Shown here: piece by piece, positions 15,501-62,400 of the stretch
How the letters are laid out: every line of letters begins with the position of its first letter
Numbering within the stretch: the first letter of the stretch is position 1
DNA from: Desmodesmus armatus
Lineage: Eukaryota > Chlorophyta > Chlorophyceae > Sphaeropleales > Scenedesmaceae
Length of the DNA: 64,000 nt
Assembly (NCBI GenBank): GCA_007449985.2
Contig: VIIQ02000075.1
Coordinates: 1 to 64,000, forward strand
Reading direction: 5' to 3'
Notes under the pieces: model-generated
What the model was told of the DNA's origin: nothing
Databases searched by the model: none
The model's input: the letters and a program-made list of their open reading frames with translations, nothing else
Made by a program: the position numbers and the translations under genes

Positions 15501-18500
15501 CCCGAGATCACCTCCAAGCTGCTGCACATCAGCAGCCTGAGGCTCATGTGGCACGTAGCAGCAGCAGGGGCTGCAGGAACAGATGCAGCACCAGATACAC
15601 CAGCACCCGACATCACCGCTGTCAACGCATACGTGCAGCAGCGTGGGGCGTTTGCAAAGGTCCTTGAGGAGATCTTGGACAGTGGGGCGACTGAGCAGCT
15701 GGTTACACCGGAGCAGCTGCTCTTGCAGCAGTGGTGGAACAGTACAGGCAGCCAGGCAGCAGGCAGCCAGGGGAACAGCGGCCAAGTGCCTGCTGAGCTA
15801 GCTGAACAGCTGTCAGTGGGGCTACACACCCTGCAAGACCTCGCATTCCAGCTGCTCACGGACCTTATGTTCCTTGAAAATGCCAATGCAGCGGCAGCAG
15901 TGCAGCAGCAGCAGGGAGGCGGCCGCCGTGCGGCGGCTGGCGGCGGCTTTGGTCAGATGTCGTTCAGCAGCAGTGTGTTGGAGCGGGTGTGGCGGTACTG
16001 TGTGGGGGTGCTGGGAAGGGAGGCGCCAGAGGTGCCTGCTGCAGGGGAAGGCAACGAAGAAGAAGATCAAATCGAGGAGGAGGAGGACGATGTGTTTGAT
16101 GACTATGACGCAGAAGGTGGGTGTGGTGGTGGTGGTGGTTGTGTTTGGGGGCGTGGGGGAGGGGGGGGGTGACAGTGGGGTTGGGATTGAGTTTGGAAGG
16201 CCTGGTGGCGGAGGGTGTGTTGGAGCGGGTGTGGCGCTACTGTTTGGGGGTGTTGGGGAGGGAGGCGCCTGAGGTGCCTGCGGCAGGGGAGGGTGGTGAA
16301 GAGGAGGAGGATCAGATCGAGGAGGAGGAGGACGATGTGTTTGATGACTATGATGCAGAAGGTGGGTTGGTGGCGTCCTGTTGCTGTGTCCCCGCCTGTG
16401 TGTATGTGTCTGTGTACAGGCTGAACACACCGAATGCATGAGAGGCATGCATGTGGTCTGTGTGTGTGGGGGGGGGGGCAAGGAGGGTGGGGAACCTGGC
16501 AACTGCCACCAATGCAGGCTTGTCCAACATGTGCTGTGTGCTGCTAAGTTACCACACGCACATGGCATCAGCTAGTGTTGACAGGCTAGCTGTCAACACT
16601 ACCTTTTGTGTGAACATCCTTGTTGAGCCGCTCGCGTCTTTTCTGTAATGCAGGTGCTGCCGCCCGACGTGCTGCACGGGCTGCCGCCCGTCGCAACGCC
16701 CTTGCTGCCGCTGCTTCTGGCCTTGAGAGCCTAAAGCAGCGAGTGCTGATGGCACTGGGAAGGCTACTGGGCTACAGGTCAGTTTGTGTGATGTGCAAAG
16801 CTTTTTCCTTGAGCTGTGATGCTGCGCCTGATGCATGCATACTGACCTGACCAGACCAGACACGGCACCATCTGAACCTGACCTTGTAAGCGGGCAGGAC
16901 GACTGTCATGTTGATCAATGAGCTGATCTTATATGGGCATGGTTCGGGATCAGCCCCAGTTCAGTGCTTGTTGTTTTGCTGCAAGGATTAGAAGCTGAGG
17001 TGTGTGCTGCCCTGTGAGATGTGTGGCTGAGAAGTGCGGGTTTCATGAGCTGGCAAGTTTGGGCATGGCCTTTGTGTGAAAGACACTGAGCTTGAGGGGA
17101 AACAATGCGCCTGTGTCTGTGTCACACACGCGGCGTTGCCTAAACCCCACGCCTGACCTAAGAGACTGGGGTACGGCAAGTTGAAGGTCCAGTGGGCACC
17201 CTCATGAGCCCTTGGCTTGCTGGCTAGTGCCGGGGTTGGGACCCTGTCCCCAAATTACTGTACTATACTGTAAACCGTTTTTGCTGCAGGGTTGTGCCTG
17301 AGCCTGGTTTCAGTTGGCTGTTGAGTCATGTCATCACACTGCTGGATGGGTACGGCGCACAGGTGCGGGGGGCACTGATGACACAGCATCATCAGCACCA
17401 AACACAGAGAGCAAAGCGCACACACAATACACACGCACAGTACAAGCATATGTGTTGGGGCACAGTACATGTTCAGGTGTCAGGGACAGAGTTCTAGTCA
17501 GTCAGCACAGCAAGATGCTGTGCAGATGCTGTGCAGATGCTGTGCAGATGCAGCCAGTCACCCAACCCCTTGCAGCAAGGGCGTCCCTGCCACCAGGAAG
17601 GCCGACCCTTAGGGTTTAGGTCCCACAAACCCCTAGTCTCCCCCTCAGCCCCTGATCACGCCGCAGCAGCAACATATCCGACGACCATTGCAGTCCTAGT
17701 TGATCAATTGACATCATTTGCTGCCTTGCTGCATGCCTGGCTGGCTGCCTCCCCGCCACCCTTTCTGCAGGCGGCCGCTTCTGTGCGTGGGCTGTTGGTG
17801 CACCTAAAGTCCACGAGTCGGGATGGTGGGCTGGTGTCGCACCTTGTTGACTAATGGCCTTGCTGCCTGCCTGCCTCCCCGTCACCCTTTCTGCAGGCGG
17901 CCGCTTCTGTGCGTGGGCTCTTGGTGCACCTCAAGTCCACGAGCGGGGATGGTGGGCTGGTGTCGCACCTTGTTGACTAATGGCCTTGCTGCCTGCCTGC
18001 CTCCCCGTCACCCTTTCTGCAGGCGGCCGCTTCTGTGCGTGGGCTCTTGGTGCACCTCAAGTCCACGAGTCGGGATGGTGGGCTGGTGTCGCACCTTGTT
18101 GACTAATGGCCTTGCTGCCTGCCTGCCTCCCCGTCACCCTTTCTGCAGGCGGCCGCTTCTGTGCGTGGGCTCTTGGTGCACCTCAAGTCCACGAGTCGGG
18201 ATGGTGGGCTGGTGTCGCACCTGGTGGAAGGGCTGACACTGCTGTATGATGAAGCACAGGAGCTGCACGGGGACGAGGACGTGCTGACAGCAGCAGGTGG
18301 GTGGTTGGTTGACACATGAGGTGCATCCATCAGGTACATGTCTTGATTAGGGATGTTGAGGGTGTATGTGTGTACGGGGTATAATAATACGGCCGATAAC
18401 TACGGTTCTACGTCTATGGAATGTATCGAACTACGCCAGCGGTGACCCTCAAACCTACGGTTGACAACACCCTACTCACGATGGCCAGTCTGTGTGTGTG

Positions 18501-53481: not shown

Positions 53482-56400
53482 TCATGGAAGCTGAGCTCCT
53501 GCTGCCACGCAGCGGCATTTGGCACATGCTGCCACAGGAGGTCCACAGCTGCCTTGCCACCCTTGTTGCTCAGCATCCTTCACCGCCTGAGACAGGGCAG
53601 CCCCTGACAACACCTGTGGGACAAGACGCATCAGTTTCGGGCCCGTGGGGAGAGCTGCAAGCTTCATTATGCACGCTGCCGGGCCCTTGCCTAAGACAGG
53701 GACAGATGTCGGGCAGCTACTCAGAGCCTCTGCACTTGCTGGACCAGCTGCAAGCACATCCTGTTGCTGGTCTACAGGGACCCGTATTGCTGCCTCAGGC
53801 GAGTCGCTGTCTGCGTGCCTGACTTCCACACCCTCCTGCATCAGCTGCCGCGTCAGGCCATGCGCCACTCCAGCCGGCAGCTGCTGCGCTGCAGGGCACC
53901 CAAGCAGAACCTCCACCGCCCTCCAGTCATGAGCCGCCACACCCTGCTGCAGCAGATGACCCACAAGCTGGCTGCTGTCTCGTGCTGAAGGCAGCGCCAC
54001 CACAGCAGCCACTGCAGCCATGACTGGGACGCACAGCCCGTCCTGCATGCTGCCAGCACCCCACTGCTCTGCTGCTGCCTGGGCCAGCAGCTGCAGGGTG
54101 TAGGACACCACTGGCTCTGGCAGCTGCTGCGCGGTCCGGCTCAGGCACAGCACCCGAACAGCGCTGCAGTCCCCCACACTGGCTGCTAGCTGCACCAACA
54201 CCTGGACCTGGTCGCTGCTGAAGCAGTTGTTGTTTGGGGAAGTGGCACCCCCAGAGTGCCGCATGACAAACGTGACGATCCTGATGTCAGGGTGGGCGCA
54301 GCGCAGACGGCTCTGCAGGGAGCACTGCAGGATGTCAAACCAGTCTGAGGGTTGGAGCCGCCTGGCAACAGGGGCATGCCAGGGAAAGTGCAGGTCGCTG
54401 GGGTTTGAGACCGCCTGCAGCGCGGCCTTGAAGCACTGCAGGAAGCGTGGGATGTCCGTGGACATCTGGTGTGACAGCACGCTCACGAGAGTGTTCCACC
54501 AAGCAGAAGTGTGGCCCCTGCCATAGCAAGAAGTTATAGACAACGGCGTGATTCGTTTACTGTTGCTGCTGACAAGCTGACAGGTGTGCGCAGACTTATA
54601 GCCTGCTACACTGGGCAATTTCAAATATGGCAGCGCGCCCCAAGTGCTGTTCGAGTTTGAAAGACGTCCAAGCTCAACTGCTAGCAAGACCTCACATGGC
54701 CGCATGGCGAACGTCTGCTGGCATTGCCATGCACGGGCACAACCAGAGCATACCCCGCCACCCCAGATGGGCCATCTGCCGACCCGTCAGTATCCATGCG
54801 GGTCAGACATCATGAATGCAGTCTTGCTTGTGACGACCTCTACTGCGCACAGCCTAACTGTCCACACAGCACTCAAAAAGCTCCAGCACGTCATCTCCAG
54901 TCAGCTTGTCCTGCATGCCCATGCTCAACAGGTCTGCGAAGCAACCACGGCAGCTGTGCTCGCGACACTGCCAAGGTGCCTCGGCAGGGGCACCAACCCA
55001 TGGACCGCTGATGAGCGTCTTTAGCATGGCCATGACGTGCTGTCGTTCCGCGCTCAGCACGACCAATGCAAACCTGCAACACGCCACACAACAGGCAGCA
55101 CAATGTAAGCCAGGTAACCCCGCCCAGTGTTGCCTGGTGAGAAGCTCTGAATGTGGCTGCAAGCTGTGCTATAGGCCAATCTCAAGTGTGTGTGCCCATG
55201 GCGACAGGGACGGCACAACGCGTCTTGCATGACAGCTGCACAGGGCCATTGTGACTCACAAATTCCTGAAGCTGCTCACACATATCTCACTCACCTGCCC
55301 AGCTCCCTCACGACGGCACCCAAATCTGCCTGCACTGCAGCTGGCAGCAGCCCCAGCACGTTGCCTGGGGACATGTGCCTTGCAGAGGGCAGCTGCAGGA
55401 TGAGCGCCACACTGGAAGCCTTGTGCCGCACGGCATCCCTCAAGGTGGACCGCACTGCCCCAGCTGGCAGCTTCTGCGCTGCACGAGACCTCAGCAACAC
55501 CCGCACTGCCTTGCAGTCATTGGCAGCTATACCCTGCTCAAGCAAAAGACGCACAAGCTGACCGCTGTCCCGGGCTGACGGCAGCGCAAGCAGAGCGACC
55601 ACTGTAGCCATGATTGGTGCACCTAGCCCATCCTGCATGCTGACAGCACCCCAATAAGCTTCTGCTGCCTGAACAAGAAGCTGCAGGGTGCTGGATACCA
55701 CTGGCTCTGGCAGCTGCTGCGCTGGCTGACTCGTGCACAGCACCCGCACAGCCCTCCAGTCTCCCACGCTGGCTGCCAGTTTCACCAGCGTCTCCACCAG
55801 TTCGCTGCTGAAGCTTGTGCTTGGTGCAGCGGTACCCCCAAAGTGCTGCGACATGTGCAGGATGATCTTGATGTCAGGGTGGGCGCAGCGCAGCGGGCTC
55901 TGCAGGGAGCACTGGAGAAGGTCAAACCAGTCTGAGGGCTGCAGCAGCCGGGCAAAGGGGGCATGCCATGGGAACTGCAGCTCCTTGGCAGATGAGCCCC
56001 CCTGCAGTGCGGCCTTGAAGCACTGCAGGAAGCGTGGGGCGTCCGTGACCCTGTGGTGCGACAGCAAGCCCACCAGGGTGTTCCACCAGGCAAAGGTGTG
56101 GCCCCTGCACACACAGTGCACACAACGCAGTGCACCAAACATTGTGCAAGCACAGTTATCTGCCGGCAAGCGGGGTGCGTCAATGCATGGGGTGCTCCGT
56201 TGGGCAGGTCATTTTGGTTGGCGGCCACTGCTAGCAGTGGCGCTGTCCCCGACAAAAAACAGGAACAAATCCATTCGCAGCGGCTAGTGACCCTCCCTGG
56301 TACCCAGCACTGAAACAAACCACTGGCAGTATACGATACCACACAAACATCAAAACTGCCGCATGTCACCTGCAAACTCCACTAGATGGGCAATGCCCTG

Positions 56401-59400
56401 AGTGGCATCCAGCACACCCCAGCACAAATGCAGGCATCGTGATCCTCACCTGGCCACGCAGTACTCCAGCAGCTCCAGCACATCACCTGCTGTCAGCTTG
56501 TCCAGCAGGCCTGTGCTGAGCAGTGCTGTCAAGGCCCCATAGCAGCTGTGTCCAAGGCACTGCCAAGGTGCCTCGCCAGTGGTGCAGCCCCATGGGTTGC
56601 TGATGAGCGCCCTGAGCATGGCCATGGTGTGCTCTCGTCCTGAGTTGAGCACAACAGCAAATCTGCGACGCAACCAGACAATGAGCAGCAAGCAAAGCCG
56701 TCTGATGTCTCGAGTGCTGCTTGCCTTGAATGCTTTGTCACATGCGGCAGGGGTACACGATACATGACGTTGGCCATCCAGCGTGCGCACACATCCATGA
56801 CACTTGCATGGGCCATGGCCATTGCAAACGTCACGTGGCACGAAGACGCCACTCAAGATGTCGCCCACCTGCCCAACTCCTTCACAAGCGCACCCAGGTT
56901 GGACTGCACTGCAGTTGTCAGCAGCCCCAGCACGTCCCCCACTGACAGCTGCTGCGCTGCAGGCAGCTGCAGGATGGGCGTCACACTGGAAACCTTGTGC
57001 CCCACTGCATCCGTCAGCACAGAAAGCACTGCGTCCGAATCAATCTCGCTGGACCATGGCAGGGCGGTGATCAGGGCGGTCATACTGCTGGCTGCAGACT
57101 TGCAGATTGATGGGCTGTGTATCAAAGCCTGCAGCAGCCCAACGACTGCTGGGGTCCCTGCAGCGCACACACGCATGCACGCGATGCCCACAGACCATCA
57201 GGCCAGCGCGCTGAAACAGTCACAGCAGAAGTGGGCAAGACTGCACAGGCATGCATGCAGCACACGTTCAAAGCCCAGCGGTCCAAGACATGTTGTCATC
57301 ATGCAAGCCACATCAAATCAAATCAAAGTTACACCTGTAGCTATGAAACTCAAGAGCTCATGCCAGCCATTCACATGTCAGGGTAGCTCATGCTGACTTA
57401 CTGATCTCCTGTGCAGCTGGCACGTAGGTCAATAGGTCAAGCACTGCCGCATGGCCGCTCTTGATGCTCGCCAACATGAGTTGCGTGAGCAGCTGTGCCG
57501 CCATAAAGTCCTGGTTGACATGAACCCACACCACCCCATCCACACTGCTGTCTCCTGCCGCATTGGCACCCACATCTCTGCCAACTGTGGGCTCGGGGTA
57601 GTCTTTCAGGGTGTGCAGGAGGTGCACGTGCAAGCTGTCGTGCTGCAGCAGCACGTCCACAGCTGCTACAGCATGTGTTTCACTTGGGTTTGAGATGGCC
57701 ATGTGCAGGAGGTCGTACAAGCTGGCTGGCTTTACGTGCTTGAGGATGTTGTAGAGACGGTGGACGAAGCTGTCAAGGGGCAGAAGCTGCAGGCAACAAT
57801 GCACGAGCAGCATGACAAGCAGAAGTTGGCAAGGTTCCCAGGAAACATGTCTCGGTCTGAGTGCGGTACTGTAACAGCATGTGCTGCATGCTTTCATAGT
57901 GTAGTCCCACTGCACCTTTTGGTGACGACATACGTCCTATCAGGCTTCGGCTGACTGTCCTGCGCGGCCGGCTGTCCTGCAGCTGTTTGGCGGCTGCGTC
58001 GTAGCTGCCTTATGACAAGCACCACTTCGCAGGAGATTCTTTGAGAGCTGCACACTTGCAGCTTGGCAATGCACAGTCCAGTCTTGGGCCGGCGTCAGAA
58101 ATCCTCCTATACAGCTGATTGGCTGTCCAATCCACCGCACAGTTTGTTCAGATACCTGCGCTCGTGGGTGATACACTTACCCCATGGTTGACGGGTCTCT
58201 GCAGCACTGCAAACGTCTTGTAGACTCTACTGCAGCTGTGGTCCAGGTGCTGCAGCAACATGGATATCGTGCCGCACGGCAGCTGCTCCTTGCATGCAAA
58301 GACAAGGAGCGCATTGGTAAGCTGCAGTCCTGCACAGGCAGTTGCACCCGCAGCGGTAAACACCGTGAAACGACATCATGTGCTGAGCATCTGAGGTGTT
58401 GTTGCATGACAATTTGTCAGGCTTAGTCATGGGCTGTGCTTTGCCCTATATATGGTCAGTAGTACCCCTTGCGATGCACTCATTGCATGTGTGTGTGTCG
58501 TGTGTCTTTCAAGGGCACTGATGAGACCCCGTGGCTGGGGTCGAAACCGGTCTGCCTTGCCCGTGTTCCACAGCGCCTGTTGGCTGTGTGGCACGTATTC
58601 ACCAGTCGTTTGCTGGTCAACAAGTTACGTTTGTAGCGTATTCTGCAGAGATCCGCCCAAGCTTGGCGACGCCTGCTATACGATATCGACCTACTTGTCG
58701 ATCGATCAACAAGGGGATGTACTATATGTGTGTGTATGCTGCTGACCCAGTAGTTCATTTTGGAGCTACTGCATGGTGTATATCTGCAGTGTTTACAGTT
58801 AGCTGCTGGGCTGCATGCAAAGATGCATGTGGTGTATCCGGCAGTTTCTGGCTGCATGCAGTTGACTAATGCCGATTTGTCAGGCTTAGTCATGGGCTGT
58901 GCTTTGCCCTATATATGGTCAGTAGTACCCCTTGCGATGCACTCATTGCATGTGTGTGTGTCGTGTGTCTTTCAAGGGCACTGATGAGACCCCGTGGCTG
59001 GGGTCGAAACCGGTCTGCCTTGCCCGTGTTCCACAGCGCCTGTTGGCTGTGTGGCACGTATTCACCAGTCGTTTGCTGGTCAACAAGTTACGTTTGTAGC
59101 GTACTCTGCAGAGATCCGCCCAAGCTTGGCGACGCCTGCTATACGATATCGACCTACTTGTCGATCGATCAACAAGGGGATGTACTATATGTGTGTGTAT
59201 GCTGCTGACCCAGTAGTTCATTTTGGAGCTACTGCATGGTGTATATCTGCAGTGTTTACAGTTAGCTGCTGGGCTGCATGCAAAGATGCATGTGGTGTAT
59301 CCGGCAGTTTCTGGCTGCATGCAGTTGACTAATGCCGATTTGTCAGGCTTAGTCATGGGCTGTGCTTTGCCCTATATATGGTCAGTAGTACCCCTTGCGA

Positions 59401-62400
59401 TGCACTCATTGCATGTGTGTGTGTCGTGTGTCTTTCAAGGGCACTGATGAGACCCCGTGGCTGGGGTCGAAACCGGTCTGCCTTGCCCGTGTTCCACAGC
59501 GCCTGTTGGCTGTGTGGCACGTATTCACCAGTCGTTTGCTGGTCAACAAGTTACGTTTGTAGCGTACTCTGCAGAGATCCGCCCAAGCTTGGCGACGCCT
59601 GCTATACGATATCGACCTACTTGTCGATCGATCAACAAGGGGATGTACTATATGTGTGTGTATGCTGCTGACCCAGTAGTTCATTTTGGAGCTACTGCAT
59701 GGTGTATATCTGCAGTGTTTACAGTTAGCTGCTGGGCTGCATGCAAAGATGCATGTGGTGTATCCGGCAGTTTCTGGCTGCATGCAGTTGACTAATGCCG
59801 ATTTGTCAGGCTTAGTCATGGGCTGTGCTTTGCCCTATATATGGTCAGTAGTACCCCTTGCGATGCACTCATTGCATGTGTGTGTGTCGTGTGTCTTTCA
59901 AGGGCACTGATGAGACCCCGTGGCTGGGGTCGAAACCGGTCTGCCTTGCCCGTGTTCCACAGCGCCTGTTGGCTGTGTGGCACGTATTCACCAGTCGTTT
60001 GCTGGTCAACAAGTTACGTTTGTAGCGTACTCTGCAGAGATCCGCCCAAGCTTGGCGACGCCTGCTATACGATATCGACCTACTTGTCGATCGATCAACA
60101 AGGGGATGTACTATATGTGTGTGTATGCTGCTGACCCAGTAGTTCATTTTGGAGCTACTGCATGGTGTATATCTGCAGTGTTTACAGTTAGCTGCTGGGC
60201 TGCATGCAAAGATGCATGTGGTGTATCCGGCAGTTTCTGGCTGCATGCAGTTGACTAATGCCGATTTGTCAGGCTTAGTCATGGGCTGTGCTTTGCCCTA
60301 TATATGGTCAGTAGTACCCCTTGCGATGCACTCATTGCATGTGTGTGTGTCGTGTGTCTTTCAAGGGCACTGATGAGACCCCGTGGCTGGGGTCGAAACC
60401 GGTCTGCCTTGCCCGTGTTCCACAGCGCCTGTTGGCTGTGTGGCACGTATTCACCAGTCGTTTGCTGGTCAACAAGTTACGTTTGTAGCGTACTCTGCAG
60501 AGATCCGCCCAAGCTTGGCGACGCCTGCTATACGATATCGACCTACTTGTCGATCGATCAACAAGGGGATGTACTATATGTGTGTGTATGCTGCTGACCC
60601 AGTAGTTCATTTTGGAGCTACTGCATGGTGTATATCTGCAGTGTTTACAGTTAGCTGCTGGGCTGCATGCAAAGATGCATGTGGTGTATCCGGCAGTTTC
60701 TGGCTGCATGCAGTTGACTAATGCCGATTTGTCAGGCTTAGTCATGGGCTGTGCTTTGCCCTATATATGGTCAGTAGTACCCCTTGCGATGCACTCATTG
60801 CATGTGTGTGTGTCGTGTGTCTTTCAAGGGCACTGATGAGACCCCGTGGCTGGGGTCGAAACCGGTCTGCCTTGCCCGTGTTCCACAGCGCCTGTTGGCT
60901 GTGTGGCACGTATTCACCAGTCGTTTGCTGGTCAACAAGTTACGTTTGTAGCGTACTCTGCAGAGATCCGCCCAAGCTTGGCGACGCCTGCTATACGATA
61001 TCGACCTACTTGTCGATCGATCAACAAGGGGATGTACTATATGTGTGTGTATGCTGCTGACCCAGTAGTTCATTTTGGAGCTACTGCATGGTGTATATCT
61101 GCAGTGTTTACAGTTAGCTGCTGGGCTGCATGCAAAGATGCATGTGGTGTATCCGGCAGTTTCTGGCTGCATGCAGTTGACTAATGCCGATTTGTCAGGC
61201 TTAGTCATGGGCTGTGCTTTGCCCTATATATGGTCAGTAGTACCCCTTGCGATGCACTCATTGCATGTGTGTGTGTCGTGTGTCTTTCAAGGGCACTGAT
61301 GAGACCCCGTGGCTGGGGTCGAAACCGGTCTGCCTTGCCCGTGTTCCACAGCGCCTGTTGGCTGTGTGGCACGTATTCACCAGTCGTTTGCTGGTCAACA
61401 AGTTACGTTTGTAGTTGTTGCATGGGGAGTGGATGCATCACAGCACGTATCAGGACAGCAGCCATGCCAGCACAAGCAGTGTCAGATGCTGCGCCAGGCA
61501 GCAGCATACACCTGCAGGTTTGTGCTGGGTGGCTTGTGACATGCAGCATGCCACCACGTGCAGGAAGCAGCTGTGCTGACGTAGTGGGTTGCACAGAGAT
61601 GGCGGCATATGTGTGACAAGCACATGCTTGCCAAGTGCGGGCAATGATCAAGATGGTGCTGCTGAAACAGGTTGGGAGGGCTGCACACTGGGCACTGCAG
61701 ACACACCCACCTGCGTCCTTCAGCGTTGCCAGCACATTGTCAGCTGCCAGTTGGGGATCAGCCTTGAGGATGTGCAACAGGCTGCATGCAACATGGTGGC
61801 TGTTGACAAACTGAGGCCCAGCTGTCTTGCATAGCCAAAGCAGACACTTCAACTGCTGCTCCTTCCAGCTGCGCTGCTTGAGCGAGAGCCCCTGTGGAGT
61901 GTGCTGGGAGACTGACTGCTTCCATGTGCGCAGCAGGGCGTATGCTGACAGCTGTGTTGTTTGGCGCGCATAGCTCTGGAAGTGCTTGTTCAGTGTGGAG
62001 CCGATGGCAAGTGTTCTGATGTCTAGCCCATGGCACATGACCAGCTCCAGGACCTGCGAGCAACCCACGAAGACAGTTTGCTGCCATAGGTGCCCTGGTC
62101 CGCATTCACAGCCTGGGCACCTTCTAGGGTCTTCATCACCATGCCGTGGGCCACCAGCAAAACCAACTGTGGTCACCACCCAAACGGCCCAACCAATCTG
62201 CTGCTGTTCTCTGCACCCTCAGGAACCAAACCTTGGACTGTATGGGCCCATGCACATACACCATACACCAAACACCATGTACCCAGTCTGTTGAGTTTCA
62301 CCTGGTGCAAATTGGCATCGGGGTTGGCTTCAACGTCTTGGTCAAGCTGCACCCCAAGTGCCACCCTCCTGCAGCAGAGACTGCTGCGGCGGCGGATAGG

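Follow-up and report, generated by a model that had tools for sequence, protein, structure and literature searches.

A 463-bp hammerhead ribozyme array in Desmodesmus armatus as a probable retrozyme insertion with Penelope-like ends

Introduction

What is a clean array of hammerhead ribozymes doing in the genome of a green alga: did it grow in place as a satellite, or was it inserted as a multimer of a mobile element, and which machinery would have copied it? The array lies near the end of the stretch of DNA analysed here (the window), the first 64,000 nucleotides of contig VIIQ02000075.1 of Desmodesmus armatus (GenBank: GCA_007449985.2), which is C71:1-64000 in our numbering of the 115.8-Mb assembly of 831 contigs. 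From the anatomy of its genomic copies we consider it likely that the best explanation is a non-autonomous, non-coding element of the retrozyme type, copied off an RNA circle by a Penelope-like reverse transcriptase (RT). The host, presumed to be a green alga in a first-pass annotation made from the window alone, very likely is one, since the rbcL product of the assembly differs at only 19 of 475 positions (hand count of the alignment) from PDB 1gk8, which we take to be from Chlamydomonas reinhardtii. Papers given by PMC accession are cited for individual passages of their text.

The array and its boundaries

Tandem Repeats Finder (TRF) detected in the window a repeat at 58412-61414 with a period of 463, 6.5 copies and 99% matches. 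It is composed of six full 463-bp units and a further 224 bp, and over the roughly 3 kb compared the units differ at one base only: the first has a T at unit position 230. Seven hammerhead cores, one in each full unit and one in the partial unit, are spaced by exactly 463 bp. With TRF, the exact spacing and the single substitution in agreement, the seven-unit array described by the first-pass annotation is real. Its start at 58412 also stands; the element proper stops at 61413, not at 61414, and is flanked by an 11-bp direct repeat. The longest stop-free frames in the concatenated units have 114 codons on the + strand and 142 codons on the - strand, in keeping with the earlier statement that the array has no coding capacity. 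The parts of the array are as follows.

58398..58408, + strand: left copy of the target-site duplication (TSD), GTTGTTGCATG; the identical 11-mer lies directly 3' of the element end
58409..58411, + strand: 3-nt filler, ACA, which separates the left duplication from the first unit and lies outside the unit
58412..61413, + strand: retrozyme insertion, six full 463-bp units and unit positions 1-224, read as a single insertion event
58447..58453, + strand: TATATAT, a possible core-promoter element present in each unit (unit 36-42)
58512..58558, + strand: hammerhead 1, with its predicted cut after 58552
58512-58517/58553-58558, + strand: helix I of hammerhead 1
58518-58524, + strand: CTGATGA of hammerhead 1
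58525-58542, + strand: helix II of hammerhead 1
58543-58546, + strand: GAAA of hammerhead 1
58546-58551, + strand: palindromic helix III of hammerhead 1, ACCGGT
Steps of +463, + strand: later hammerheads, with predicted cuts after 59015, 59478, 59941, 60404, 60867 and 61330
58553..59015, + strand: predicted 463-nt RNA monomer from cut to cut, from the period and the ribozyme descriptor
61331..61413, + strand: 83-nt 'tail' from the last ribozyme cut to the fixed 3' end, the putative start site of reverse transcription, from the genome copies and, for the comparison with Penelope-like elements (PLEs), Frangieh 2024 (PMC11167929)
61414..61424, + strand: right copy of the TSD; its first G could alternatively be unit position 225 of the element

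A dispersed family with one fixed end

Searching the genome with the unit, with 40 of the 43 candidates scored, gave at least 66 matches. There are 28 exact matches to the core, at 14 places, and a 30-nt core has no match in viral contigs. Our main sample comprises 20 loci, those with a best match to the unit of at least 90% identity; none of their copies is longer than the 3.0 kb of the window copy. Nineteen of these copies end at unit position 224-228, which is 83-87 nt past the predicted cut; the exception is a copy on C180, where this common 3' end is present only on an inverted arm. The 5' ends are spread along the unit. Copies longer than one unit of 463 bp are present at eleven of the 20 loci, or at twelve if an interrupted copy on C431 is counted, the pieces of which total ~470 bp; at 18 loci the copy is shorter than two units. 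Two of the loci, both on C671, share their flanking sequence and look like one insertion that was later duplicated. The C431 copy is split by a sequence resembling, by eye, a miniature inverted-repeat transposable element. An RT beside this copy was considered as the autonomous partner and rejected, as its frame and GTA-repeat end look, by eye, like those of a long interspersed nuclear element (LINE).

Target-site duplications were searched for in 20 loci, namely 18 of the loci with at least 90% identity (all except the duplicate L054 and the rearranged L055) and two less similar copies on C233 and C22. Ten of these have an exact repeat of 8-19 bp, in all ten cases beginning right after GTTTGTA, compared with repeats of at least 8 bp in 11 of 380 mismatched flank pairs. 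In three loci the repeat and the element start have 1-2 nt in common, and at L063 an 11-bp repeat is found a few bases further on, outside the counting rule. The genome-wide unit search, with its fixed 3' end, variable 5' ends and duplications, thus agrees with the retrozyme-like biology proposed in the first-pass annotation: this is a dispersed retroelement family, and the window array is one copy of it.

At L057 the left repeat is 37 nt off, and between the duplication CCTGTTGC and the 5' end (upstream of 1043) there are three and a half CCCTAAA repeats. They resemble what we take to be plant-type telomere repeats and were perhaps added at the 5' junction during insertion. In the old short copies L072-L082 the 5' ends are not reliably placeable. 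The matches of five old copies with 78-83% identity (C85, C299, C78, C102 and C190) begin at unit 139-142, near the cut, but in copies so diverged the start of a match carries little weight.

The hammerhead motif

We built a descriptor by hand in which CTGANGA, helix II, GAAA, helix III, the cleavage site and helix I are all required. It matches the + strand of the window seven times and the - strand never, and has no match on either strand of 200 dinucleotide shuffles. Helix I has 6 bp (AGGGCA/UGCCUU, with one G-U pair) and helix II has 6-7 bp. The order of the parts is that of a type I hammerhead, and the cut predicted after 58552 is correctly placed according to the descriptor. The motif had been called a complete type I hammerhead, which overstates the case, as helix III is an ACC/GGU pairing without a loop. 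An Infernal-type search with the Rfam models, suggested earlier as a check, did not recover the motif: no hammerhead is reported in the window at gathering scores, nor in 58350-61450 at E-values up to 10.

ACCGGU is its own reverse complement, and therefore two hammerheads are able to share a 6-bp helix III. Judged from the sequence, helix III should form properly only between two hammerheads, so the ribozyme should act as a dimer, as in PLEs. When two strands of 76 nt are cofolded without constraints, helix III and both helices II form, with the register of helix I shifted (bracket string read by eye). Folded as a circle of 463 nt, the RNA reaches -179.8 kcal/mol, compared with a mean of -154.4 and a standard deviation of 6.4 for its shuffles, of which 1 in 100 is as low.

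Penelope-like elements in the same genome

The genome contains two PLE families, PLE-1 and PLE-2, which also have hammerheads. All three hammerheads possess a loop-less palindromic helix III, ACCGGU in the retrozyme and ACUAGU and ACGCGU in the two PLEs. The PLE-1 copy L097 has an open frame of 983 aa, the RT region of which is 27% identical over 479 aligned positions to P0098, a protein named by its source after the fish Coilia grayii. P0098 has a C-terminal GIY-YIG domain above the cut-off and RVT_1 below it, and the combination of RT and GIY-YIG marks PLEs (PMC11167929). The PLE-1 frame stops after the RT region; Pfam finds RVT_1 only, below the cut-off, and no C-terminal GIY-YIG. PLE-2 is 38% identical to PLE-1 over 283 positions. 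Searching the genome with both proteins detected these two families plus weaker fragments, and a profile of PLE RTs gave three weak matches in PDB, with a best E-value of 0.036.

The distance between ribozyme cut and insertion end is similar in these elements. The fixed 3' end of the retrozyme lies 83 nt past the predicted cut. For PLE-1 it lies at 85 nt in four of the five copies read (L083, L092, L093 and L097), a base or three more being possible; these ends are taken from the copies read, and 38 of the 45 search matches reach the last base of the query, where the query was cut. In PLE-2, 30 of 41 matches end 92-101 nt past the cut, most commonly at 95 (13 of 41). In the PLE of the lizard Anolis the cut is 26 nt into the open reading frame and reverse transcription starts at 111-118 (PMC11167929), which by subtraction of the printed positions gives 85-92 nt from cut to start. 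The algal retrozyme therefore has two PLE-like features, its loop-less palindromic helix III and a 3' end 83-87 nt past the cut, compared with 85-92. This insertion anatomy suggests, and adds to the evidence, that PLE-type machinery mobilises such elements.

There are further observations on the PLE copies. At C330 three adjoining PLE-1 pieces all end at one point, which seems to be template jumping. On C201:57353-62049 a stretch of PLE-2 that lies just beyond the tail is found again ~4.6 kb upstream in the same orientation, like tandem PLE copies. The PLE-1 copy L093 has ~19 nt of flank and then its own inverted copy, by eye a fold-back at the 5' junction.

Allele patterns among units

If a circle is lapped by the enzyme, the units of an insert should descend from one monomer. 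We compared pairs of units within loci, leaving out L054; the sites inside a locus are not independent, which limits the following statistics. With the window excluded, 68 of 75 within-locus allele pairs agree, whereas shuffles have a mean of 48.2 and a maximum of 62, and none of 2000 reaches 68. With the window included, the numbers are 303 of 315 compared with a shuffle mean of 210.5 and a maximum of 252. By hand count, 27 site entries are concordant and 18 discordant. Fifteen of the discordant entries bear an allele found in no other compared locus, and the remaining three consist of a TG microsatellite and, in two loci, a C-to-T change at one CpG. Since alleles are mostly common to the units of a locus, an insert resembles a series of copies of a single monomer that mutated later, and the pattern fits reverse transcription lapping a circular RNA. 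Breaks of the unit at 224 inside arrays, which would be expected from template jumping, were not seen.

Inverted 5' arms

Two copies, the retrozyme copy L055 and the PLE-1 copy L084, open with an inverted piece that begins at the common 3' end and reaches back as far as the ribozyme cut. The inverted arm meets the cut exactly in L084, and in L055 to within an ambiguous overlap of ~3 nt. The enzyme of the Anolis PLE is reported to cleave both strands and to extend them (PMC11167929). A second cDNA, begun at the same start site on the cleaved linear RNA and running off at the cut, would give such arms.

A proposed life cycle

In the life cycle that we propose, transcripts would be cut by hammerheads paired as dimers via the ACCGGU palindrome, and the monomers would be closed into 463-nt circles. 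A Penelope-like RT, primed at a staggered cut of the target, would always start at the same internal position, 83 nt beyond the ribozyme junction; for this step the fixed end and the duplications are observed and the enzyme is presumed. The RT would then run backwards for anything from a partial lap to several laps, giving the constant 3' end, the scattered 5' ends and the 6.5 near-identical units found here, an insert pattern that is observed and for which lapping is the putative mechanism. It is about an even chance that the scars record the whole retrozyme cycle, from internal priming and laps of the 463-nt circle to the inverted arm ending at the cut. On this fuller account the inverted cDNA arm would stop at the ribozyme cut because its template is cleaved linear RNA.

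Several results weigh against the proposed cycle. When a double hammerhead is forced on two adjacent units, it is 5.7 kcal/mol worse than the best fold, so a competing fold exists and help by a protein is conceivable; furthermore, the free fold of a single cleavage region is no better than that of shuffles (z 0.17). A duplication of 8 bp is lacking at ten of the 20 loci tested and also at nine older copies with uncertain ends (L072-L080). Regarding the spacing, the direct arm of the fifth PLE-1 copy, L084, ends near 79, and the value of 95 for PLE-2 lies outside 83-92. The inverted arms are two cases only, one of them ambiguous by ~3 nt. Moreover, the retrozyme unit has no match in L097, L098, L092 and L086 at E-values up to 1, and its tail is common to neither of the PLE families seen; the case for a shared mechanism is thus stronger than that for any particular helper. 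With the N-terminus of PLE-2 unread, no PLE was detected that has a recognisable nuclear endonuclease, and the genome gave three GIY-YIG matches. Two of the three are above the cut-off on C38 (C38:155161-155859), the contig with rbcL, and so probably belong to a chloroplast intron endonuclease and not to a PLE; the third, on C555, is just below the cut-off.

Two more such points, the starts of the direct arms and the identity of the units, also bear on the alternative that survives best, which is nevertheless unlikely. Here a genomic array is transcribed into a multimer that serves uncut as the template, there is no circle, and the ribozyme has little weight in transposition. Inserts are continuous through the cut, no direct arm begins there at any of the 20 loci, and multimeric transcripts of a homogeneous array could likewise yield identical units. 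For the Anolis PLE, hammerhead mutants left in vitro insertion unchanged and unprocessed RNA was deemed the main substrate (PMC11167929). However, with 68 of 75 within-locus pairs in agreement every source array would need to be homogeneous, and 18 of the 20 loci with at least 90% identity are shorter than two units.

Rather improbable is a LINE (non-LTR) RT that starts at the RNA's own 3' end, as with short interspersed nuclear elements (SINEs). RVT_1 loci are numerous in this genome (of 627 candidates, 150 were scored), and variable 5' truncation and TSDs of 8-19 bp are LINE-like too. The constant 3' end of the retrozyme, however, is away from the ribozyme cut and inside the unit, longer inserts read straight across it, the copies read have no poly(A) or microsatellite tail, and the spacing from cut to end is near that of PLEs.

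An ordinary satellite with an incidental hammerhead, its units having multiplied where they lie through unequal exchange or DNA rolling circle, is very improbable. It would account for a clean head-to-tail array with 99-100% identity. Growth in place does not agree with the dispersed copies, their common 3' end, the duplication round the whole array, and the single-lap and sub-lap copies elsewhere, which point to a multimer inserted at once. A plant-type long terminal repeat (LTR) retrozyme moved by Ty3-gypsy machinery is hardly credible: many RVT_1 matches among the 150 scored of 627 are LTR-element-like by length (by eye) and inserts of 1.5-2 units inherently have terminal direct repeats, but the hammerhead order is type I and not type III, the TSDs have 8-19 bp and not the 4 bp of that family (PMC4918200), and the inserts are fixed at one end and variable at the other, not fixed at both.

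Comparison with known elements

The element copied, as we propose, by a Penelope-like RT has relatives in several known systems. Metazoan non-LTR retrozymes are short non-coding tandem repeats with type I hammerheads and TSDs >4 bp and without LTRs (Cervera and de la Pena 2020, PMC7229834), and the algal element shares the type I motif, the short non-coding tandem units and the TSDs >4 bp. It differs from them, as they are described in the cited passages, in its green algal host, in its unit of 463 compared with about 170-400 nt, in its loop-less PLE-type helix III and in its ends at PLE-like spacing. The same source reports dimer action for vertebrate retrozyme hammerheads and proposes PLEs as retrozyme helpers, partly from co-occurrence (PMC7229834). 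With the satellite hammerhead of the newt, which is a vertebrate, the alga has in common tandem repeats of a few hundred bp and a dimeric hammerhead (PMC6155905, PMC7229834), presumed in the alga.

The Poseidon element PAc of Anolis (Frangieh 2024, PMC11167929) is comparable in its minimal hammerhead, its insertion-end 'tail' and its internal start, the last of these putative in the alga. PLEs code for an RT, canonically with GIY-YIG, whereas the algal element has no detectable coding and would be a non-autonomous user at most. Plant LTR retrozymes have a type III hammerhead, LTRs with primer binding site and polypurine tract, a 4-bp TSD and a link to Ty3-gypsy (Cervera 2016, PMC4918200). Both they and the algal family, which has type I hammerheads and TSDs of 8-19 bp, are hammerhead-bearing non-coding retroelements for which a circle model with solo, monomeric or multimeric cDNA can be drawn (PMC4918200). 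The earlier reading as a retrozyme is therefore supported, with ribozyme and insertion ends of the Penelope-like and not of the plant LTR-retrozyme type. A life cycle with a circular template and cDNA of variable length was proposed in 2016 for plants (PMC4918200) and in 2020 for animals (PMC7229834).

Searching titles and abstracts of the open-access literature on algal hammerhead retrozymes or PLEs, we found no description of this family. Craig et al. are said to have reported PLEs in the green lineage in 2021. Hammerheads or putative retrozyme sequences in algae are mentioned in one sentence each, without detail, in the cited passages of two papers (PMC4918200, PMC11722881). Of the earlier claim of an undescribed family, it holds that the sequence is likely new; that algae have hammerheads or putative retrozymes was already in print. 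The sequence data suggest as new a green algal family with PLE-type ribozymes, ends at the spacing of PLE start sites and allele patterns of one template monomer.

The enzyme mobilising non-LTR retrozymes is only a proposal (PMC7229834), and the role of minimal PLE hammerheads has been called a mystery (PMC7761336). A retrozyme with PLE start-site spacing at its insertion ends makes both questions testable in a green alga, and the distance from cut to insertion end is a simple genomic test for other genomes. If the reading is true, a spacing of ~83-95 nt between cut and start would be a rule common to algal and lizard elements, and retrozymes would be tied to PLEs by mechanism, beyond co-occurrence.

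Surroundings of the array and other hammerhead repeats

Several long frames of alike composition flank the array on the - strand, at 53482-57936 and 61403-62218 of the window (by eye), and the array may be intronic or may separate members of a gene family. Elsewhere in the window, at 17737-18222, TRF detected a 126-bp tandem repeat with 3.9 copies and 97% matches.

A second hammerhead repeat of ~184 bp was found at L088:938-1121 (C68) and L083:966-1149 (C71:265365-265548). It has 49 matches in the genome, of which 47 reach query position 177-184, the query ending at 184. By eye, there is a tRNA-like B box 3' of the cut, and the 3' part resembles the PLE-1 tail (GGGTCGCTGG, CCCACA, GTCTGTAC). 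ARAGORN found no tRNA in L083, L088, L089 and L097, so 'tRNA-like' stays a reading by eye; the repeat is possibly a SINE using PLE machinery. At L097 (C557) and on C558 and C791, such hammerhead/SINE-like pieces begin 4-7 bp past PLE-1 3' ends in the same orientation, which may reflect template switching within one insertion.

Another hammerhead family, with tandem units spaced 949 and 1055 bp, is present at L086 (C74:232900-236500) and on C389 and C18; its helix I is long, and the sequence at the cut is CCGGTC or CTGGTC. In the whole genome the pattern CTGATGAN{6,30}CGAAA has 294 matches compared with 148 for the reversed pattern, which leaves roughly 150 hammerhead cores above the control, 28 of them from the retrozyme.

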